From positions 124,001 through 188,000 of the forward strand of contig JAPOVQ010000017.1 of assembly GCA_026708035.1 (NCBI GenBank): a stretch of 64,000 nt of DNA. The letters are read 5' to 3'. This document shows, one piece after another, positions 19,654 through 62,899 of this stretch. A program made the translations under genes and the position numbers. Below the pieces are notes generated by a model. That model was not told the DNA's origin. It made no database searches and saw nothing but the letters and a program-made list of their open reading frames with translations. Source of the stretch: Chloroflexota bacterium. GTDB taxonomy: Bacteria > Chloroflexota > UBA11872. Position 1 is the stretch's first letter, and every line of letters begins with the position of its first letter.

Positions 19654-20027
19654 GTCGGGCCCGCCTCCGTCGGCGCGGGCTCCGGGACCGATCCGCCGTC
19701 GGCGAGCGCCTCGGCCACGCTCTCGAGGACCTCTCCCGTCGACGCGACACGACGCAGGTGCCCCGTTCCCTTCATGACCTCCAGCAGCTCGCGGATCACG
19801 CGCTCGCGCTCGGCGGGGTCGTCGCTGCGGATGGCGGCAGCGACGCAGGTTTGGAGGTGACGCTCGAGAATGGCGGCGTTCACCCTTTCGATGGCGCCCT
19901 GAATCGCCAGCGTCTGCTTGAGGATGTCTGTGCAGTAGGCCTCGTCCGCAATCATGCGCTCGACGCCGCGCGCGTGCCCCTCGATTGACCTCCAGCGATT
20001 GACGAGTCGCCGCGTCGCATCGTCCAT
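19650..20027 (-). CDS. csoR: CsoR family copper-sensing repressor
   Basis: Four-helix repressor that releases DNA on binding Cu(I). The Cu(I) ligand set is intact: C32, H57 and C61, with the same 25- and 4-residue spacings as characterised CsoR proteins. I choose ATG 20025-20027, giving 125 residues beginning [21 protein letters not shown]; an in-frame GTG at 20054 would start inside the operator. The acidic C-terminal tail is somewhat long. It is the first gene of csoR-copA, with a CsoR-type palindrome immediately upstream. Confidence 0.93.
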
Positions 20028-20253: not shown

Positions 20254-22503
20254 GTGGCTATCCTTGACGCGCGGCGCGAGGCGTGCGCCGGTGCACGGAG
20301 GGCCGGACCGATCGATCAGGCGCTCTGGCTGCTTGCACTGGTCGCGTTCGCCGTGCTCGGGGTGCCCTGGGCGCGCCTGGCCTTCGGACGGCTGACCACC
20401 CGCGGCCTCGCGCTCGCCGCGCCCCTCGGGTTCTTCCTGTTTCACTACGTCGCCTGGCTCGGGCTGTTCACCGGCTGGTTCCGCAACGGCACGACCTACG
20501 CCTGGGCCGCGCTCGCGGTCTTCGCGGCCGCGACGGCGGCGCTGGCCTGGCTCATGCGGGCGGACCTGCGCGAGCTTTGGCCGCGCCGGCGCCTCTGGGT
20601 CTGGGGCATGGCGGCGCTCCTCGTCGCCTACGGCGTCGGCGTGGGGATGCGCTGGCTCAATCCCGAGATCGCCGGCACCGAAAAGCCCATGGACCTGGCA
20701 CTGCTCAGCGCCACCATGCGCAGCCCGGACTTCCCACCGCTCGACCCGTGGTTTGCGGGCGAGACGATCAACTACTACTACCTGGGCTACTCGATGGGCG
20801 GCGCCCTGGCGCACCTGGCGGGTGCGTCGCCCGCCGTGGCCTACAACACCTACCTCGCCACGCTGCTGGCATTGCTCGTCGTGGGCGTCGGCTCGGCGGG
20901 CTACGACCTGGCCGCGATGCTCGGCGCCGGGCCGCGGCGCGCGCTGCGGGCGGCGGTTGGGTCGGTGCTCGTCGGAGTCGTCGCCGGCAACTTGGCCATC
21001 ACGCGCGCCGTGGTGACCGAGGAGTTTCGCGGCCAGACCGGCTTCTGGCCGGGCATTGGGTGGAACGCTTCACGCGTCATCGAGCGGCAGCCGGTCGATG
21101 GCGTGGCTGACAAGACGATCAACGAGTTCCCGGCCTTCTCCTTCATTCTCGGCGATCTGCACCCTCACGTGATGGCGCTGCCATTTGCCGTGATGGCCGC
21201 CGGCCTCGCGTTGCAAGGCATTGCGGTCTGGTGGCGGCCCGGCGCCGACAGGAGCTGGACGCCGTGGGCAGGCTCGCTGCTCGCGGGACTCTTGGTCGGC
21301 GGCCTCTACGGGCTGAATGCGTGGGACCTGCCGACCTATGGGGTCCTCGTCATCGGCGCGGCCTTCCTGGCGCACCTTGGCGGGCCGGGGACGCGCGCCT
21401 GGGGCCGGCTGCTGGTCCACGCCGCATTGATCGTCGTGGCGGCGGCCGTCGCCTGGCTGCCCTACAGCCTGAACGTCACCCTGCTCAGCGAGGGACTGGG
21501 GGTGGTGCCCACGCGCACGCTAGCGCTGCACTTCCTGCAGGTGTTCGGTCTGCTGGGCTTGCTCGCCGTGGCGGGGCTGGTCGCGCTGCTGGCGGACGGC
21601 TCGCGGTCGACGCGCGTCTGGCTCGGCGTGAGCGCGGCCGTCGCGGCACTGGCCGTGCTGGTCACCGGCGGGGAAATCGCGGGCGTCCTCCTCGTCGTGC
21701 TGGTCCTGGCGGTGGCGGCGATGGGGCGCCCGCAAGCCGCGCCGGGACCGTTCGCCCTTGGCCTTCTGGTGGCGGCCGCGTTCGGCCTGATGCTGGTGGT
21801 CGAGCTGGTCCACGTGGACGACTTCTTCGGACCGCCCTATGTCCGCATGAACACCGTGTTCAAGGTGCACTACCAGGCATGGGCCTTGCTGGCGATTGCC
21901 GCGGGTCCGGCGCTCCTCGTAACCTGGCGCAAGCTTTCCGACGCCGGCGGCCCGGGGTGGGCGGTGGCCCGCGCCGGTTATGCCAGCGTGGTCGCGGTGC
22001 TGCTGGTGCTGGCGTTGAGCTACTCCGCGGTCGCCCTGCGCGACAAGGCGGCCGACAGCAAGGTCAGCGGCACGATTGACGGGCTGGCGCAAGCCGAGCG
22101 GCTGCACGCCGACGATCTGGCAGCGGCGCGCTGGCTGGCGCGAAACGCGGGGGACGCGGCCGTCGTTCTGGAAGCGCCGGGTACTCCGTACAGTGAGATG
22201 TCACGCATCGCCACGTGGTCGGGTGTGCCGACCGTGATCGGCTGGACGCAACATGAGCAGCTATGGCGCGGGAGCATTCCCGAGATCGGCGAGCGCGCCG
22301 ACGCCGTTGACCGAATCTATGCGGCGGCGGATGCCGCGGAAGCCCTGCGACTCATGCGCCGCTACGGCGTGACGCACGTGGTGTTCGGCCGCATCGAGCG
22401 GGCCCGCTACGACGCAACCGCGGCATCTCGCCTGCGCGCCTACCTCGAGCCCGTGGCGCAGTTTGGCGGCACAACCGTCTTCGCGGTGCCGGCCAATCCA
22501 TGA
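20254..22503 (+). CDS. DUF2298 (Chlor_Arch_YYY) polytopic membrane protein
   Basis: Large membrane protein of the Chlor_Arch_YYY family, thought to resemble GT-C glycosyltransferases. Key features: D147 in the first outer loop (EKPMDLALLSATM), then FPPLDPWFAGETINYYYLGY with the YYY at 174-176, and NEFPAFSFILGDLHPHVMALP. About a dozen hydrophobic segments follow, then a soluble C-terminal region of roughly 160 residues. GTG 20254 is chosen because the first membrane segment begins shortly after it; the frame is open back to 19954 over csoR, and an ATG at 20098 is possible. It overlaps the next gene (ATGA at 22500-22503). Confidence 0.85.
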   Translation: MAILDARREACAGARRAGPIDQALWLLALVAFAVLGVPWARLAFGRLTTRGLALAAPLGFFLFHYVAWLGLFTGWFRNGTTYAWAALAVFAAATAALAWLMRADLRELWPRRRLWVWGMAALLVAYGVGVGMRWLNPEIAGTEKPMDLALLSATMRSPDFPPLDPWFAGETINYYYLGYSMGGALAHLAGASPAVAYNTYLATLLALLVVGVGSAGYDLAAMLGAGPRRALRAAVGSVLVGVVAGNLAITRAVVTEEFRGQTGFWPGIGWNASRVIERQPVDGVADKTINEFPAFSFILGDLHPHVMALPFAVMAAGLALQGIAVWWRPGADRSWTPWAGSLLAGLLVGGLYGLNAWDLPTYGVLVIGAAFLAHLGGPGTRAWGRLLVHAALIVVAAAVAWLPYSLNVTLLSEGLGVVPTRTLALHFLQVFGLLGLLAVAGLVALLADGSRSTRVWLGVSAAVAALAVLVTGGEIAGVLLVVLVLAVAAMGRPQAAPGPFALGLLVAAAFGLMLVVELVHVDDFFGPPYVRMNTVFKVHYQAWALLAIAAGPALLVTWRKLSDAGGPGWAVARAGYASVVAVLLVLALSYSAVALRDKAADSKVSGTIDGLAQAERLHADDLAAARWLARNAGDAAVVLEAPGTPYSEMSRIATWSGVPTVIGWTQHEQLWRGSIPEIGERADAVDRIYAAADAAEALRLMRRYGVTHVVFGRIERARYDATAASRLRAYLEPVAQFGGTTVFAVPANP

Positions 22504-50940: not shown

Positions 50941-53787
50941 CTAGCGCACTCTGAACGTCACCGGGTCCGACGCCGTCTGGTTGCCCGCCCGATCCGTCGC
51001 GATCGCCCGCAGCGTGAAGGTGCCCGGCTCGGCCGTCCACCGCAGGCGATACGGGGCGCGTTGCACCTCGCCAATGGCCTCGCCGTTCATCTCGTAGGCC
51101 ACCGCCGCCAATCCACCCGCGTCCTGCCACACCGCCCGCAGCTCGAGCACGCCCGCCGGACGATCGTCGCCGTTGGCCAGGCCCGCCACCGCCACTGCCG
51201 GCGGAGTGTTGTCCACCACAAATCGCCGGAACACTAGGTCCTCGCGTCCATTCGACGCGCGCACCGCCAGGCGTAGCGTGTAGGGACCGTCGGGGAGTTG
51301 GCTGGTGTCGATCGCCCGCAGCGGCCCCTCCGTCACGGGGCTCCCGCCAACCGTGCCAATGCGAATCCAGCTCCCCGGGGCCGGTCCCGCGCCATAGCGC
51401 AGCTCGAAGTCCCTGAATTGGGGTCCCGCCGCCGTCCCCTGGACGTCCAGCACGCTGCGCACGCGCTCCGACGGCGCGGGGCTGGTGATGGCCGCCTGCC
51501 CCGACGCGCCAGAGGACGGCGCTGCCGCCTCGACGAACGCTTCGGGCGGCAGCCGCAACGACGAGTCCTCCGGCAGCGTTCGCTGCCACTCCTCGGCTTC
51601 GGTCGGCAGCACCACGAACACCTGCTCCTCTACCTCGTCCCGTGGCGTATCCGGCGTGGCGAGAAGCCCCGTCGGCACGTGGATCTCAAATGCCTGGTGC
51701 ACCATGTCCCGCTGCGCCGGCACCGTGCCGGTGAGGAAGAACTCCTCGCGTGTCTCGGGTGTGAACGGCGATGGCAACAGGCCGGACAGCGCGTCAATCT
51801 CCTGCACCACCACCGTTGCCGGCTGCGGCCATGCCAGCGCCGGCTGGCCCTCCAGCGCCGCCGTCATGAACCGCTGCCAGATTGGCGCGGCTCCGCGCAC
51901 GCCGGTCACGTCGTCCATCGGCGTCCCATCGGCATTGCCCACCCACACCCCCGTCACCAGCTGGGGCGTGTAGCCGACCGTCAGCGCGTCGCGCGTGTCC
52001 TCCGTCGTGCCGGTCTTGGCGGCAGCCGCGCGTCCGGGCAGCTGGAGATTGCGCCGCGTCTCGCCGAATCCAAGCACCCGGGCGTTTTCGTCGCTGAGGA
52101 TCGACGTCATCAAGAACGCCAGCCCGGGACTGATCACTTGCGACGCCGCGATCCGGGTCGGCGGTTCCGCCACGTCCGCGAGCACTCGCGCGCTGCAGCC
52201 GTCATCCCCCAACTGCTCGACCACCCGCCCCTGGGCGTCCAGAATGCAGAGGATGCCCGTGGGCGCGACCGACCGCCCTTCGTTGGCGAAGACGCCGTAG
52301 GCGCTCGTCAACTCGATCAACCGCACCTCGTTGGAGCCCAGCGCCAGCGCCGGGCCGATGCGCGAGGGGTCCGTCAGCGTCGTGATGCCCAGCCGCTCGG
52401 CCATGGCCACCGTGGGACTGAGACCGACGTTCGCATCGATCTGCGTCCGTACCGCCGGAATATTGAGCGAGCTTCCCAGCGCCGTGCGCAGGCTCACCGG
52501 TCCGCTGAACCGCTCGCTGTAGTTCCGCGGCGCGTACGGCTCTTGCCCCGCGATCGGCACGATCGTTGGAATGTCCAGCAGCATGGTCGCCGGGGTGTAG
52601 CCCCGCTGCAGGGCGCTGGCGTACATGACGGGCTTGAAGGCCGATCCCGGCTGCCGCGGCGCCAGCGTCACGTTCACCTGGCCGTCGATCGTCGCGTCGT
52701 TGAAGTCCAGGCTGCCCACCATGGCCAGAACCTCGCCCGTGCCAGGCCGCAGCGCCACCAGCGCCGCGTTCGTCACCGTCTGGTCGGCCAGCGTGGCGAC
52801 GTGTTCTCGCGCCGCCGTCTCGGCCTGCTCCTGCAGGTCCAGGTCCAGCGTGGTGACGATGCGCCAGCCCTGCCAGCTCACGTCCGGCCCGTAGCGCGCT
52901 TGCACTTCGTCCAACACGTACTGGAAGAAGTGGGGCGCGCGTACCTCGGCCGCCTGCGGCGGCATGATCGTGATGACCTCGCGGCGCGCCGCCTCCACTC
53001 GCGCCGGCGACGCCAGTCCTGATTCTTCGAGCCGGTCCAGCACCCGCAGCTGCTCCCGGCGCGCCGCTGCCGGGTCCACGTGCGGATTGTCCGTGGACGG
53101 CGACCGCAATAGCCCCGCCAGCAGAGCGGCCTCCGCCAGCGTCACGTCACGCAGCGGCTTCCCAAAATAGGTGCGGGCGGCCGCCGCCACCCCATAGCTC
53201 AAGCTGCCGAAGTAGTTCTGATTGAGGTAGAGCCCTAGGATTTCGTCTTTCGAGAACTGCTCGCTGAGCTGCCACGCCAGCACGGCTTCCTTGACCTTGC
53301 GCTCCACCGTCTCCTCGGGCGTGAGCAGCACGTTCTTGACCAGTTGCTGCGTGATGGTGCTGGCCCCGGAGACGATTTCGCCGCCCGTGAAGTTCTGCCA
53401 CAGGGCGCGCACGATGGCCCTCAGCTCAACCCCCGGGTTCTCGTAGAACGTGGCGTCTTCCGCCGCGATCACCGCCGCCTTCACATCGGCGGGAATCGCC
53501 TCCGGCGGCACCAGCGTGCGTCGGCCCTGGCCCAACAGCTCGCCCAGCTGGCGGCCGCGCCGGTCGACGATCGTGGTGGTTTGAAAGAGGCCGGAACCGA
53601 CGTCCAGGATCTCCTCGACCTCGGGCACATCCGTCAGCAGGGTGCTGGCGGCCGCCGCGGCCGCGCCCACGCCGCTGGCCGCAATCACCGCGAACACCAG
53701 CGTGCCGGCCAGGATTGCCACTGAAGCGGCGCCCGTCAGCAACCACACCCAAGCCGCGACCGCGCCGCGCGAGCGCCGCCGCCGCAT
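50941..53787 (-). CDS. Class A penicillin-binding protein (transglycosylase-transpeptidase)
   Basis: Bifunctional cell-wall synthase anchored by one helix (AVAAWVWLLTGAASVAILAG region). The GT51 domain has AAEDATFYENPGVELRAIVR and SGASTITQQLVKN; the transpeptidase domain has the SxxK serine in RQPGSAFKPVMYA, SSLNIP (SxN) and AAKTGTTEDTRDA (KTG). The C-terminal ~200 residues add Ig-like/Big-type segments (VLDVQGTAAGPQFRDFELRY; NTPPAVAVAGL), ending in VTFRVR. ATG 53785-53787 has GGAG eight bases upstream (948 residues); ATG 53853 is also in frame. A peptidoglycan synthase this complete shows the organism makes a wall. Confidence 0.9.
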   Translation of the reverse strand: MRRRRSRGAVAAWVWLLTGAASVAILAGTLVFAVIAASGVGAAAAAASTLLTDVPEVEEILDVGSGLFQTTTIVDRRGRQLGELLGQGRRTLVPPEAIPADVKAAVIAAEDATFYENPGVELRAIVRALWQNFTGGEIVSGASTITQQLVKNVLLTPEETVERKVKEAVLAWQLSEQFSKDEILGLYLNQNYFGSLSYGVAAAARTYFGKPLRDVTLAEAALLAGLLRSPSTDNPHVDPAAARREQLRVLDRLEESGLASPARVEAARREVITIMPPQAAEVRAPHFFQYVLDEVQARYGPDVSWQGWRIVTTLDLDLQEQAETAAREHVATLADQTVTNAALVALRPGTGEVLAMVGSLDFNDATIDGQVNVTLAPRQPGSAFKPVMYASALQRGYTPATMLLDIPTIVPIAGQEPYAPRNYSERFSGPVSLRTALGSSLNIPAVRTQIDANVGLSPTVAMAERLGITTLTDPSRIGPALALGSNEVRLIELTSAYGVFANEGRSVAPTGILCILDAQGRVVEQLGDDGCSARVLADVAEPPTRIAASQVISPGLAFLMTSILSDENARVLGFGETRRNLQLPGRAAAAKTGTTEDTRDALTVGYTPQLVTGVWVGNADGTPMDDVTGVRGAAPIWQRFMTAALEGQPALAWPQPATVVVQEIDALSGLLPSPFTPETREEFFLTGTVPAQRDMVHQAFEIHVPTGLLATPDTPRDEVEEQVFVVLPTEAEEWQRTLPEDSSLRLPPEAFVEAAAPSSGASGQAAITSPAPSERVRSVLDVQGTAAGPQFRDFELRYGAGPAPGSWIRIGTVGGSPVTEGPLRAIDTSQLPDGPYTLRLAVRASNGREDLVFRRFVVDNTPPAVAVAGLANGDDRPAGVLELRAVWQDAGGLAAVAYEMNGEAIGEVQRAPYRLRWTAEPGTFTLRAIATDRAGNQTASDPVTFRVR

Positions 53788-54002
53788 CAGCGAGCTCCGC
53801 GCAAGCCTCGCCCGCGCGTCACGATTGACCTGGCGGCCGCCGGATGGCCGCATCTGCGAGCTACGCACCCGCACCAGCCTCACTCTCGGAGAACTCCATT
53901 CTAAGCGTGCGCGCTTCCTCCTCCCGTTACGCCGGCCCTTAAGCTGACACTCGCTGCCGGCGGCGATCGAAGGGAGCAGCAGCGTCAATTGAGGCCGCGC
54001 GA

Positions 54003-56834
54003 ATGATCGTTGATTGGACGATCGTCCCGGGATTGCTGCTGCTGGCGGCGGAACTCGTCGCGCTCGCCGCCCTGGGCTACGTGGTCGCCCGCACCGTGCT
54101 CCGGCAATCCGACGAGCGCATGGCCCTGGCCCAGGGCCTGGTGCTGGGGCTGGCGCTCTGGGGCTTCGTCGTCAACGTCGTCATGTACGTCATCCCGGCC
54201 CCCGCGGGTGTGATCGCGGCCTGGGTGGTCACGCTGGCGCTCGGCGCTGGCCTGGCCTGGCGCGCCGGCCGCCCGCTGCGGCCGGCGCTGCGCACGGCGG
54301 CGGTCTTCCTGACCGCGGTTCTGGGAATGCTCTGGGTGGCGCTGGCGTGCCGCCAGATGTTGTCACTCTCCGACTGGGAGATTCATCTCGGACTGGCGGC
54401 GTCAATCCGGGCTGGGGGGTTCCCGCCGGTGCTCCCGTGGCAGCCGGGTATGCCCGCGCCCTATCACTACGGCGTCGACATGCTCATCGGCCTTTTGGCG
54501 CCACCGTTCGGCCCCGACCTGGCGTTTGTGACGGAACTGGTGGGCGCCTATGTGTGGGTGGGCTTCGCCCTGACCGTGGCCACACTGCTGAACCAGCGCG
54601 GGTCGTGGACGGTCGCCGTGGCGCTGGCGCCGCTCCTCCTGACGGCCGGCGCGTGGACGCTGGCCAGCTTCGACGACCCGCCGACCGTCGCGATCTTCCC
54701 CCTTCCCGCGGGAGCGCCGCCGGACGATTTGTTGGCGGCGCTTGGAGAGGCCTATTGGCCGTCACCGCGCTTTCCCTGGCCGGCCCTGGTCGATGCGCCG
54801 CTGGGGAATGTCTGGACGCCCTCGTTCCCTCTCGCGTATGCACTGGCCTTCATCGTGCTGGAGCGGGCGGTCGGCATGGGCCGCCGGTGGTCCTGGTCGT
54901 CGGCGCTGACACTCGGCGTGCTGCTCGGGTTCCTGGGTCTCGTGTCGGAGGCCGTCGCCTTGGTCGCCCTCGCCCTGTGGGCCCTCCTGGAAGCTGTGCC
55001 GGTCATGGCGTCCTGGCGGTCGCGTGCCTCCGACGGCCGGGCGGTTCTGCGCGCGGCTTCCGGGCCGCTCGTCGGGGCGTTGCTGCTGGCCGTAAGCGGC
55101 GGAGTGCTCACGGGTGCGCTGACCGAGGCGTCCGGAGGGGGGCTCTCCGTGAGGTGGACGGGCGACCTGGGTCGCGGCGGTCCGCTGGGAAAACTCATCG
55201 AAGGGCCAGACGGCCTCTGGGTCCTCGGTCTCGGCCCCCTCGTCGTCTCGGCGGTCGCGGTCCTGCTGGCTTGGCGCGATCGCCTGGTGTTGGCGTTGGC
55301 GGCCGCGAGCGGCGTGTTTCTGCTCGCCGGCCTCGTGCTGCACTACGACCCCTTTCCGGTGGACGTCACCCGCATGGCCGGTCACGCGCGGAACTTCGCC
55401 CTCTTGGGGCTGCTGGTGGCGCTGAGCGTTCGCCTGCCCATGTTGCGGCCCCGCTGGCGCTACGCCGCCGGCGCACTGGTGGTCGCCCTGGTCGTTTGGC
55501 CAACCGCGATTGCGCCGGTCCATGCCGTCGGATTCGCCCTCGGTCGAGGACCCCGCTTCGCCAATGCCGAGCTAGGGCCGCAGGAACACCGAGAGTGGTT
55601 TCTGGGGCGCTACGCGCTGGGACGCTTCACCGACGAGGAGTTCATGTCCGATCGCATGGCGTCCTACATCGGCGAGCACACGGCGGCCAAGTCCCGGATC
55701 CTCTCGCCCAGTCCAGGGGCCTTGACCGTCGCCACGGGACGTCCCAACGCCTCGGGCTTCGCATCGGTTCCGCACATCGTGGCCGTGCGCGGGCCGGCCT
55801 ATGCCGATGCCGTCGGCATGCTGGACCCTGCGGCCGTCAGTCAGCTCGGGTTCGACTACGTGCACGCCTCGGATGAATGGCTGGCTCGCCTGCCGCCTCG
55901 CGCCCTGCGCCGCCTTGAGAATCCCGACTTCTTTGAGCTGCTCACGCGTGACGGCCCCGACGCTCTCTATCGCGTGCGGCCCGCCTTTCGGGAGCTCGAT
56001 GCGGACCCGGCGTCGTTCGAGGCACTCCGGCGCGCCGTGCCATCGGCCGCCGCGGTGTATCTGTCGCCCACGATCGATCGGCTGCACGCCGCGCACGTGG
56101 CGTCGGTCCTCGCCCATGCCCAGCTGTTCGGCGAGGTGGATTGGTCGCGTCTGCATGCGCTCCGAACCCCGGCGCAGACCGCACCGCTGAGCGGGCGGAC
56201 CCCCGACGTCGTGGTTACGTCCGCCAGGGCCGCCCCATCGTCGCTTCCGTTGCTGGCACAGCGACGGCCGGTGTGGGCGAATGACGATCTCGCCGTCTAC
56301 GCCCCTGGCGGCGCGGTGAGCCCTGTCGCTCAACCGGAGGCGCCGACGTTCAGCGTCCGCCTGTCCAACGTGAGCCTCGACGGTGCCCGCATCGCCTTCA
56401 CCGCCACCTTCGCCGACCGCGCGCCCGAGCGCTGGATCAAGCAAGACTGGAAGGTTGTTCCCGCGGACGTCTCCGCGCCATGGGCGTTCCCGCAGGTATC
56501 GCTGAATGCTTCCGGGCGCCCGTACGAAGCCGCGCAGTGGTTTCTCGGCCAGGTCGTCTCTGGGTCCAGCCTTGCGAGCCACGTTTACACCTACGACCCC
56601 ATCGAGCGCCGGCTGAGCCAGCAAGGCGATGATGGCCGGTTCACCGCCGTGCTGGCCGGCGGCAGTTCGTTGGCCCCGGGCACATGGATGCTGGTCGTCG
56701 GCCTGCAGCACGGATCGCCGTGGGCCTGGGAGGAAGTGGCGCTAATTCCGGTCATGCAAATCGTCGTCGCGGACACTGGTGAGGTCACCTACGCTGTCTT
56801 CGAGGGCGCCCTGAGCGTGAGACTGGCCGAATAG
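54003..56834 (+). CDS. Large polytopic membrane protein, tandem paralogue 1 (GT-C-like?)
   Basis: 943 residues: about 12 hydrophobic segments (residues 1-500) and a soluble C-terminal part (about 510-943). It is not a family I can name. The first outer loop has SDWEIHLGLAASIRAGGFPP (D124) and PWQPGMPAPYHYG (YHYG 154-157). This parallels the DUF2298 protein at 20254, where D147 is followed by FPPLDPWFAGETINYYYLGY, so a distant GT-C-like relationship is likely. Other landmarks: GHARNFALLGLL and NASGF/GFDYVHASDEWL in the tail. ATG 54003 with GAGG upstream. Its neighbour at 56920 is a full-length paralogue sharing even the upstream sequence. Confidence 0.75.
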   Translation: MIVDWTIVPGLLLLAAELVALAALGYVVARTVLRQSDERMALAQGLVLGLALWGFVVNVVMYVIPAPAGVIAAWVVTLALGAGLAWRAGRPLRPALRTAAVFLTAVLGMLWVALACRQMLSLSDWEIHLGLAASIRAGGFPPVLPWQPGMPAPYHYGVDMLIGLLAPPFGPDLAFVTELVGAYVWVGFALTVATLLNQRGSWTVAVALAPLLLTAGAWTLASFDDPPTVAIFPLPAGAPPDDLLAALGEAYWPSPRFPWPALVDAPLGNVWTPSFPLAYALAFIVLERAVGMGRRWSWSSALTLGVLLGFLGLVSEAVALVALALWALLEAVPVMASWRSRASDGRAVLRAASGPLVGALLLAVSGGVLTGALTEASGGGLSVRWTGDLGRGGPLGKLIEGPDGLWVLGLGPLVVSAVAVLLAWRDRLVLALAAASGVFLLAGLVLHYDPFPVDVTRMAGHARNFALLGLLVALSVRLPMLRPRWRYAAGALVVALVVWPTAIAPVHAVGFALGRGPRFANAELGPQEHREWFLGRYALGRFTDEEFMSDRMASYIGEHTAAKSRILSPSPGALTVATGRPNASGFASVPHIVAVRGPAYADAVGMLDPAAVSQLGFDYVHASDEWLARLPPRALRRLENPDFFELLTRDGPDALYRVRPAFRELDADPASFEALRRAVPSAAAVYLSPTIDRLHAAHVASVLAHAQLFGEVDWSRLHALRTPAQTAPLSGRTPDVVVTSARAAPSSLPLLAQRRPVWANDDLAVYAPGGAVSPVAQPEAPTFSVRLSNVSLDGARIAFTATFADRAPERWIKQDWKVVPADVSAPWAFPQVSLNASGRPYEAAQWFLGQVVSGSSLASHVYTYDPIERRLSQQGDDGRFTAVLAGGSSLAPGTWMLVVGLQHGSPWAWEEVALIPVMQIVVADTGEVTYAVFEGALSVRLAE

Positions 56835-56919
56835 GTGGCGCGGCGCCGCGGAGTCTTGAGCCGGCGCCAGGTGCGGGCCGCCGGTGAAAGGATAGGCACC
56901 GTCACTTGAGGCCGTGCGC

Positions 56920-59721
56920 GTGACCGTTGATCCCGCAGTGATCCCCGGATTGCTGCTGCTGGCGGCGGAACTCATCGCGCTCGCGGCCGTGGGCTACGTC
57001 GTTGCCCGCACCGTGCTCCGCCAGAGCGATGAGCGCTTGGCCTTGGCGCAGGGCCTCGTCATCGGGCCGGCGCTGTGGGGCTTCGTCGTGAACGTTGTCC
57101 TCTACGCCCTCCCGGCGCCCGCGGGAGTGGTTGCGGCCTGGGTGCTCACGCTCGCGCTCGCCGCCGGACTTGCCTGGCGCGCCGGCGAGTCCGTGCGGCC
57201 TGGGCTGCGCACGACGGCCGCCGTGGTGGTCGCGGCCCTGGCGCTGTTCTGGGTCGCGCTGGCCAGCCGCCAGCTCCTGACGATTGTTGAAGATTTTCTG
57301 CATCTGGGACTGGCGGCATCCATCCAAGCCGGCGGGTATCACCCGCCCGCCTTTCCCTGGAGCCCGGATCTGCCCACCGCCTATCACTACGGCTCCAATC
57401 TGTTGATCGGTCTCTTGGCCCCGCCGTTCGGACCCGACCTGGCACTCGTGACCGAGGTGCTGGGCGCCTATCTCTGGATGAGCTTCGCCCTGGTCGTGGG
57501 CACGCTGGTCTTCAGCCGGGGATCGTGGATCGCGGTGGTGGTCGCAGCCCCGCTGGTGCTCACGGCCGGCGCCTGGACGCAGGTCCACTACGCGCCGCCG
57601 CCGGGCATCGTGCAGCTCCCCGGCCCCGGCGAGCTGCCGGCGCTCAACGCCAGCGTGCGCACCTGGCTGGCGGAGGTCTACTGGCCGACGCTGGACGCAC
57701 CCTGGGAGACGGTGCTCGAGGCGTCACCGCCAAATATCTGGAAGCCGTCGTTCACGCTGGCGTATGCGCTGACGCTCGTGGTGCTGGAGCGGGTTACCGC
57801 CGGCAGCCGCCGCTCCTGGCCGTCGACGCTGGTCCTGGCGGCCCTGGTCGGATTCCTGGGTCTGGCCGACGAAGCCGTGGCCGTGATGGTGGTGGCCCTG
57901 TGGATCTTGCTCGAGGTGGCGCAGCTGGTTGCGGCCAGACCGGCGCGCGCGCGGCGCCTGCGCGAGGCTCTGCGCGCGGCTGCGGGACCGCTGCTGGCCG
58001 CGCTCGTTCTGGCCGTTGGCGGCGGCGCCATCACGGGCCTCCTGACCGGGCCGTCCGGAAGCGGCCTGGCGCTGGCCTGGATGGACGATCCGGGCAGCCG
58101 TCGACCGATCGGCGACTTCATCGACATTTCCGGCGGTCTGGGCGTGCTTGGTCTTGGCGTAGTCGTGATCGTCGCCGTCGCCGTGCTGCTCGCGCGGCGC
58201 GACCGCCTGGTGCTGGCACTGGCGCTTGGGAGCGGGCTCTTTCTGCTCGCGGCACTCACGCTGCACTACGAGTTCTCACGGGATGTCGTGCGGCTGGACG
58301 GTCATGCGCGAAACTTCGCGCTCATGGCGCTGCTCGGCGCGCTGAGCGTCAGCCTGCCGGCCCTGCGCCTTCGGTGGCGCTACGCCGCCGCCACGCTGGT
58401 CTTCGTCCTGGTCACCTGGCCGACGATCGTGACGCCCCTGCGCAGCATCGGCGTGGGCCTCGGCAACGGCATCCAGCTCGCCAATGCGGAGTCGGGCCGT
58501 CGGGAGCACGCCTCGGACTTCCTCGGACGCTATGTGGCCCGGAGCGGCATGTCCGATCGCGTCGCCGCATACATCCGTGATCGCACTGCGGCCGATGCGC
58601 GCATCCTCGCCCCGGATCCGATCGCGATGTCCATCGCCACGGGCCGCGCGAACGCGTCGGGCTTTACCGACTTCATTGGCTTCTCGAGAGTGCGTGGGCC
58701 GGAGTATGTGGACGCGATCCGCCGGCTCGAGCCTTCGGCAATTCGCCGGCTGGGCTTTGACTACGTGCAAGCCACCGACGATTGGCTGGCCTACCTTCCG
58801 CCGCGGGCGGCGGGATGGATCGAGAATCCGAATTACTTCGAGCCGCTATTGCGCGACGGTGCCTCGGCGCTCTTCCGCATCCGGCCCGAGTTTCTGGCCA
58901 TTGAATCGCCGCCCGATCCTGCGTCGTTCGAGGCCTTGCGCCAGGCGGTGCCGCCGTCGGCGACGGTGTATCTGTCGCCGTCGATCGGCTACCTGGGGTG
59001 GGTGCGGGCCGCGTCGGTGCTGTCCCACGCGCAACTGCTCGGCGAGGTGCGCGTGTTCGGTGAACACCTGCGGCCCGGCTTCGACACCCAGCCGCTCGGT
59101 GGTCGCACGCCGGATCTCGTGGTCACCTCGGCGCGCCTCGCGCCGTCGGCTTTTCCGCCCGGCCGGCGAACGCCGATCTGGTCAAACGATGATTTCGCGG
59201 TCTACGCCCCGGGCGGTACCGTGCCGCCGATCATGCCCGCGGCCGAGACGCTGCTAAGCGTGCGGATGTCGTCGGTGAGCATCGATGACGGTCGGCTGGC
59301 GTTTACCGCGACGCTGGCGGACGATGCGGCGCGGCGCTGGACCGGCCAGGATTGGGTGATCCTGGCGGCTGACGACTCGCCGTGGGCGTTGCCGCGCGAC
59401 CTCGGGACCGACGGGCGCAGCTATCTGGCGGCGCAGTGGTTCGTCGGGCAATTCCATCCGGGTCAGGGAGTGATTAGCAAGCGGTACGTGTTCGACGCCC
59501 GCGCGGCGAGCCTGTCCCTGGAGGTCGAAGAGGGACGTTTCGTTCCCCTGGAGACGTCTGACAGCGGGCTCGGCCCCGGCGTGTGGACGCTCGCGCTGCG
59601 GCTGCGACACAACTGGACGGAGGCCGCTCTAATCCCGGTGGTGCGCCTCACGATCGCCGAAGATGGCGCGGCGACCTTTGCGGTCTTCGAGGACGCGCTC
59701 GGCGTGACGCCCATTCCATAG
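56920..59721 (+). CDS. Large polytopic membrane protein, tandem paralogue 2
   Basis: 933 residues, the same architecture as its upstream neighbour. The first ~85 residues are nearly identical between the two (IPGLLLLAAELIALAAVGYV, then VARTVLRQSDERLALAQG), and similarity falls towards the C-terminus. The outer loop reads EDFLHLGLAASIQAGGYHPP then PTAYHYG. I choose GTG 56920 because alignment with the first copy puts the starts together (GTGACCGTTGAT versus ATGATCGTTGAT); a GTG at 56914 is in frame. Eighty-five bases separate the copies. The probable role is sugar transfer or lipid-linked glycan handling, by remote resemblance only. Confidence 0.72.
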   Translation: MTVDPAVIPGLLLLAAELIALAAVGYVVARTVLRQSDERLALAQGLVIGPALWGFVVNVVLYALPAPAGVVAAWVLTLALAAGLAWRAGESVRPGLRTTAAVVVAALALFWVALASRQLLTIVEDFLHLGLAASIQAGGYHPPAFPWSPDLPTAYHYGSNLLIGLLAPPFGPDLALVTEVLGAYLWMSFALVVGTLVFSRGSWIAVVVAAPLVLTAGAWTQVHYAPPPGIVQLPGPGELPALNASVRTWLAEVYWPTLDAPWETVLEASPPNIWKPSFTLAYALTLVVLERVTAGSRRSWPSTLVLAALVGFLGLADEAVAVMVVALWILLEVAQLVAARPARARRLREALRAAAGPLLAALVLAVGGGAITGLLTGPSGSGLALAWMDDPGSRRPIGDFIDISGGLGVLGLGVVVIVAVAVLLARRDRLVLALALGSGLFLLAALTLHYEFSRDVVRLDGHARNFALMALLGALSVSLPALRLRWRYAAATLVFVLVTWPTIVTPLRSIGVGLGNGIQLANAESGRREHASDFLGRYVARSGMSDRVAAYIRDRTAADARILAPDPIAMSIATGRANASGFTDFIGFSRVRGPEYVDAIRRLEPSAIRRLGFDYVQATDDWLAYLPPRAAGWIENPNYFEPLLRDGASALFRIRPEFLAIESPPDPASFEALRQAVPPSATVYLSPSIGYLGWVRAASVLSHAQLLGEVRVFGEHLRPGFDTQPLGGRTPDLVVTSARLAPSAFPPGRRTPIWSNDDFAVYAPGGTVPPIMPAAETLLSVRMSSVSIDDGRLAFTATLADDAARRWTGQDWVILAADDSPWALPRDLGTDGRSYLAAQWFVGQFHPGQGVISKRYVFDARAASLSLEVEEGRFVPLETSDSGLGPGVWTLALRLRHNWTEAALIPVVRLTIAEDGAATFAVFEDALGVTPIP

Positions 59722-62801: not shown

Positions 62802-62899
62802 TGGCGGAGGTGCATGGGAGTCGAACCCACCTAGGACGCTGACCAGCGCCCCACAACGGTTTTGAAGACCGCGAGAGCCACCCGGCCCCTTCCACCTCC
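62802..62899 (-). tRNA. selC: tRNA-Sec (anticodon UCA)
   Basis: 98 bases including an encoded CCA end (62802-62804). The anticodon loop CTTCAAA (62861-62867) gives anticodon TCA at 62863-62865, on a 5-pair stem. The acceptor arm is GGAGGTGG with GCACCTCC (seven pairs plus one G-G mismatch, the long Sec form), joined directly to a 5-pair T stem with TTCGACT loop. There is a long variable arm (GGCGCT-ggtc-AGCGTC) and a six-position D stem. These are the traits of bacterial tRNA-Sec and not of tRNA-Ser. It matches the selB gene at the other end of the window. Confidence 0.93.

Follow-up and report, generated by a model that had tools for sequence, protein, structure and literature searches.

We found that two tandem genes of a Chloroflexota bacterium, W1 and W2, are members of an unnamed, lineage-restricted, and strongly amplified family of membrane proteins, which is a sister family of DUF2298/YYY rather than a part of it. 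Judged from a predicted structure, W1 and W2 are probably GT-C glycosyltransferases with lipid-linked sugars as donors, which would make or decorate an extracytoplasmic glycan; each ends in a beta-sandwich that possibly binds sugar. The features below lie in the window, i.e., the whole 64,000-nt stretch of DNA that was analyzed.

54003–56834, forward strand: W1, predicted GT-C-fold membrane protein of 943 aa, first of the tandem pair (open reading frame, AlphaFold2 model, GT-C structural matches)
56920–59721, forward strand: W2, paralogue of W1, 933 aa, GTG start at 56920, 57% identical to W1 overall
53984–54001, forward strand: repeated start context before W1, GTCAATTGAGGCCGCGCG, exact in the sequence
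56901–56918, forward strand: repeated start context before W2, GTCACTTGAGGCCGTGCG, exact in the sequence
54003–54332, forward strand: W1 5′ segment, codons 1–110 (helices, dS, hybrid loci)
56920–57249, forward strand: W2 5′ segment, codons 1–110 (hybrid loci, dS)
54288–55547, forward strand: predicted GT-C transmembrane core of W1, residues 96–515 (AlphaFold2 model, structural matches)
54372–54374, forward strand: W1 Asp124, candidate catalytic acid (conservation; position as in GT-CA enzymes, PMC12041299)
57289–57291, forward strand: W2 Glu124, same position as W1 Asp124
54462–54473, forward strand: W1 YHYG, residues 154–157 (conservation of H155)
55371–55373, forward strand: W1 Arg457, candidate phosphate-binding residue (invariant, 95/95)
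55635–55979, forward strand: W1 exoplasmic subdomain, approximately residues 545–659, like the AglB globular domain and DPY19
56340–56822, forward strand: W1 C-terminal beta-sandwich, approximately residues 780–940, with invariant W811/Q814/W816
20254–22503 (mechanical open reading frame from 19954), forward strand: DUF2298/Chlor_Arch_YYY protein, distant homologue of W1 and W2
50941–53988, reverse strand: class A penicillin-binding protein, divergent neighbor of the W locus, kept in three sister species

W1 and W2 are co-oriented and separated by 85 nt, and both open reading frames are present as in the original prediction of a tandem pair of membrane proteins of about 940 residues. The start context is repeated exactly, as had been noticed; in three sister species it stands before the syntenic gene as well, and it was found upstream of none of the other 12 paralogues in the genome. 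Also present are YHYG, the Gly/Phe-Pro-Pro stretch, and an acidic residue at position 124, which is D in W1 and E in W2. The first 85 or so residues had been called nearly identical, which is somewhat strong wording for a segment that is indeed strongly alike (83–85% amino acid and about 82–84% nucleotide identity over the first ~90 residues). Identity is not flat along the two copies and drops, as proposed, toward the C-terminus (37–45% amino acid, 54–56% nucleotide). Neither protein has a meaningful Pfam or NCBIfam match. Weak Pfam matches (NiFe_hyd_3_EhaA, DUF6798, DUF4597, DUF7103, and DUF2919) were disregarded; all those with a stated cut-off fall below it, and DUF6798 was listed by E-value alone (0.021).

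The suggestion of a GT-C-like fold was supported by an AlphaFold2 model of W1 built with 83 family sequences (pLDDT 90, pTM 0.90), which has the multi-TM core fold of the GT-C (GT-CA) superfamily. In VIA-align the best 32 rows were all solved GT-C enzymes (Z 8.1–13.2), with AftA first (Z 13.2, 488 residues, rmsd 6.0) but tied with OST and ArnT (ArnT: Z 12.9 over 428 aa), and with Pmt, AglB, AftD, PglB, DPY19, and Emb also among the top rows, several of them tied. Foldseek agrees (AftA: E = 1.1e-4), although low TM-scores over the whole model (0.33 for AftA, by query length) make the match a distant one. With E-values up to 10 allowed, a profile search of PDB sequences listed no GT-C chains, and an O-fucosyltransferase match from the same search was dismissed as chance-level. 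The model thus supports assignment of the W1/W2 family to the GT-C-like fold class, and sequence and prediction together support its DUF2298 homology, domain order, and residue conservation.

In the model, three N-terminal helices (5–31, 38–63, and 68–87) come before the GT-C core, the first helix of which spans residues 96–117, so that codons 1–110 encode the three extra transmembrane helices and most of the first core helix. The exoplasmic part folded alone with pLDDT 89.5. Its first subdomain (residues 545–659) resembles the globular domain of AglB (3vu0: Z 9.2, rmsd 2.8, 108 aa) and DPY19 (Z 8.4), and is followed by a second small alpha/beta part (residues 661–775); Foldseek with the exoplasmic part alone gave no match below E = 0.001. 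The terminal beta-sandwich has mid-range matches (Z 5–6.5) to sugar-binding and other sandwiches, and these do not single out sugar-binding domains: a Wzt domain scores Z 5.4–5.5, and C2, VPS26, and ASF1 are at an equal level. The sandwich is variable except for W811, Q814, and W816, which are invariant in 83 sequences; by analogy it might bind carbohydrate, a weak suggestion.

Residue conservation points to a candidate active site. Position 124 is D or E in 89 of 95 family members, H155 is kept in 94, and E178 and R457 in all 95. In the model, D/E124 sits directly before helix 125–136 and after the first transmembrane helix of the GT-C core. An Asp that sits at the tip of JM helix 1 is reported to be essential in GT-CA enzymes (PMC12041299), and D/E124, which matches this acid in position only, is a candidate catalytic acid; R457 is a candidate for binding the donor phosphate. 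The six remaining copies (L073, L056, L058, L044:1176, L064:19036, and L063:12841) have H, N, or R at position 124 and may be inactive or altered. Some of the changes to H or R are inherited, because they recur in sister genes of other genomes.

The protein at 19954–22503 matches both DUF2298 (1.1e-100) and Chlor_Arch_YYY (1.4e-151), in agreement with its original identification from position 20254 as a DUF2298 protein. W1 and W2 had been described as distant relatives of DUF2298/YYY within one GT-C-like superfamily, and this relation was recovered by profile comparison. Against the DUF2298 and Chlor_Arch_YYY models, W1 and W2 gave no match at E 1 and did not reach the curated cut-off, and BLASTP aligned only 26 residues. 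Alignment with hhalign of 83 family members to 26 DUF2298 proteins, however, covered 611 columns (E = 5.6e-7; 564 columns and E = 3.7e-7 when repeated locally), whereas controls with an unrelated NuoL-type multi-TM family and with reversed alignments gave E ≥ 0.027 over ≤ 151 columns. Furthermore, the Pfam DUF2298 model matched about two dozen family members when run over the genomes of relatives, although only one passed the cut-off (29.8 vs. 27.8 bits). Because the controls are clean and the Pfam model finds family members, common ancestry of the two families is well supported at the level of sequence profiles. The two also share the order of transmembrane helices, a FPP..PW...Y(H/Y)Y loop, and the first exoplasmic domain; W1 and W2 differ from DUF2298 (PF10060, TIGR03662) in an additional C-terminal ~280 residues that include the beta-sandwich, and in copy number, with a few DUF2298 proteins in the genome vs. 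14 W-family copies. A large unannotated protein family is thereby tied to DUF2298, and the model gives it a fold and a likely chemistry.

Several known systems share the GT-C core with the W family. Among them, mycobacterial AftA is the best structural match, and the genes of the arabinosyltransferases EmbA/B/C are clustered paralogues; the arrays of the W family differ in reaching about 12 genes. The likeness to AftA and Emb is one of fold, in contrast to a sequence-detectable relation, which the PDB search did not find. EmbC has a carbohydrate-binding module at its C-terminus that requires conserved Trp (PMC3044687), and W1 ends in a beta-sandwich that may be comparable. The oligosaccharyltransferases AglB/STT3/PglB, together with DPY19, share with W1 both the core and a similar first exoplasmic subdomain, but W1 adds the second alpha/beta part, the beta-sandwich, and the extra N-terminal helices. 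ArnT and other PMT-type transferases also have the core; the W family differs in having no PMT_2 Pfam match and a larger exoplasmic part. A literature search found no relevant report of tandem GT-C genes in Chloroflexi.

From fold and conservation we infer catalysis, the types of donor and acceptor, sugar binding by the sandwich, and differing specificities of the paralogues. Each protein would draw a sugar from a membrane polyprenyl-phosphate donor and, at the outer face, transfer it to a surface glycan (or glycoprotein) that the beta-sandwich holds, with the paralogues varying in acceptor or donor. The W811/W816 sandwich would be an analogue of the EmbC module and hold the growing glycan as that module does. 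Several GT2 proteins in the genome resemble dolichyl- or polyprenyl-phosphate sugar synthases, all below family cut-offs, and could load the lipid carrier. Neighboring Gfo/Idh/MocA and SDR oxidoreductases and GH106 and GH32 proteins in this genome were not taken as evidence. Several points count against the glycosyltransferase reading: a fold is no proof of catalysis, 6 of 95 members lack D/E124, the TM-scores are low, the matches of the beta-sandwich do not single out sugar-binding domains, a search of the genome found no GtrA-type flippase family, and the array neighbors when clustered yielded no conserved partner gene common to most arrays.

Two other functions were weighed. The proteins could be OST- or ligase-like oligosaccharide transferases, which would transfer an entire preassembled glycan instead of single sugars from a lipid pyrophosphate to an S-layer or to secreted proteins. 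In favor of this, OST and AglB rank high among the matches of the whole model, and the closest matches of residues 545–659 are the AglB globular domain and DPY19. Yet a single-sugar transferase, AftA, is best in both searches (with Z tied with OST and ArnT), and one general ligase hardly explains 14 differing paralogues, so we regard this function as unlikely. Less likely still is that many copies have ceased to be enzymes, the GT-C scaffold now serving as a surface receptor or membrane-anchored lectin in which the beta-sandwich is the working part. The invariant Trp residues of the sandwich and the replacement of the acidic residue by H, N, or R in six members would fit such a role, but the other 89 keep D/E124, E178 and R457 are kept throughout, and copies at array ends that lack the sandwich retain the core, this short form recurring in other species. 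Glycosyl transfer from lipid-linked sugars remains the reading we favor.

The original prediction counted three members of the superfamily here, which is too low: a search of the 3.46-Mb, 96% complete Chloroflexota MAG found 14 paralogues, besides the DUF2298 proteins. The W locus has two of them, contigs C8 and C23 have tandem arrays of seven and four, respectively, and C35 has a single copy; genes of an array share direction and are mostly 70–320 nt apart, with one gap of 689. At about 2.8 kb each, the 14 genes occupy about 1% of the genome, and they suggest an unusually large set of tools with which surface sugars are built. Of 18 further genomes from the GTDB family of this MAG, 17 had strong matches (5–18 per genome), and the 18th (76% complete) had a distant homologue only. 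In one species about 12 copies follow one another within 34 kb (G003:C2). The arrays are not an assembly artefact because they are seen in genomes that were assembled separately, including one that is a single contig. Across 301 Chloroflexota genomes of 179 genera, full-length members were limited to three genera of two families, and a few other genomes had single distant homologues each. Three distant homologues from other lineages (L087, L088, and L089; 975–1044 aa) keep the order of acidic residue and YHYG, and may show the unamplified state of the family.

Full length and an own start codon characterize 13 of the 14 copies, and the short copy recurs elsewhere, which rules out antigenic variation from silent cassettes. 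The short copy is the last gene of the seven-gene C8 array (L029:2090-4438, G000; 783 aa) and has no beta-sandwich. Two other species have array-end copies whose tail, SRATNESWTT, is nearly the same, so the short form has been inherited and is not fresh decay. The lone copy on C35 (L031:8100-10886, G000) starts about 30 nt past the apparent 3′ end of a tRNA gene, and two of its orthologues likewise start just past an apparent tRNA gene end.

The pair is older than had been thought. A tree of 95 members places W1 beside a gene of jk18xA (88% identical) and puts W2 together with genes from RHO3 and jk18x1, all with high support. Since each copy groups with orthologues of other species, the W1/W2 split predates these species, and the recent duplication originally proposed is ruled out by the tree and by the orthologues of each copy in other species. 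The locus is syntenic in four species, with the penicillin-binding protein gene on one side in all. G002 has W1 alone, with the flank from beyond W2 attached behind it. Two sister species (G001 and G003) have a single gene, with upstream DNA of W1 type (0.79–0.83 vs. 0.51–0.54) and a gene body of W2 type from about codon 110 (0.84–0.87 vs. 0.62–0.63 at the switch), a hybrid sequence as expected if a crossover within the shared 5′ segment had deleted the rest. Furthermore, dS between W1 and W2 is 0.40 (0.26–0.60) in codons 1–110 vs. 0.94 (0.81–1.08) in the rest. Because dS is lower there and W1/W2 hybrids occur in two sister species, we conclude that the 5′ part has recombined, in line with the gene conversion proposed originally; on sequence comparison, codons 1–110 are the recombining and most conserved part of W1. 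Sequence and prediction support the copy number as well as a history in which copies were gained and lost with 5′ recombination.

The gradient between W1 and W2 could alternatively reflect only stronger functional constraint on the N-terminus, without recombination. All 14 copies are more alike at the N-terminus in amino acids (0.72 vs. about 0.51), and only slightly so at four-fold sites (0.54 vs. 0.49 elsewhere; random 0.41). As the family-wide likeness is mostly at the amino acid level, limited residue choice and recombination both contribute, and constraint may explain most of the pattern in the family as a whole. As the sole cause for W1 and W2 it is contradicted by the reduced dS and by the joining of W1-type upstream DNA to a W2-type body in G001 and G003; nor does the N-terminus evolve more slowly between close orthologues, dN/dS being 0.32–0.42 vs. 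0.19–0.22 in the next region (three pairs). Constraint alone is accordingly a poor candidate for the pair, and recombination of the 5′ part is preferred. Identical runs near alignment column 356 were left out since they are inflated by shared gaps. Two more candidate 5′ exchanges were noticed in other arrays (C8e; L052:10001 vs. L044:13050), and C23c and C23d (L030:6794-13107) are identical over a tract of 375 nt although their background identity is ~85%, a sign of recent conversion.

More speculatively, the arrays might form a diversity system driven by recombination through the shared 5′ segment, in which unequal crossing-over and conversion would delete, duplicate, and hybridize tandem GT-C genes so that sister strains differ in surface glycans. 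We consider this a long shot; if true, the arrays would yield strain-specific surface glycans, e.g., against phages or in host recognition. In any case, the arrays and the species-specific hybrids form a natural series for studying how GT-C enzymes shift specificity.

The relatives that have names are MAGs from series of isolates such as RHO, COS, and jk18x. A study of demosponges sampled Rhopaloeides odorabile and Coscinoderma matthewsi (PMC8163846), and judging from the isolate codes the RHO and COS MAGs are likely of sponge origin; the bacterium of the window is probably sponge-associated as well. With sponge hosts, as the codes suggest, surface sugars would be a likely interface with host and phages. 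Beyond the W locus, ARAGORN predicts a selenocysteine tRNA gene in the window at 62802–62899 on the reverse strand.
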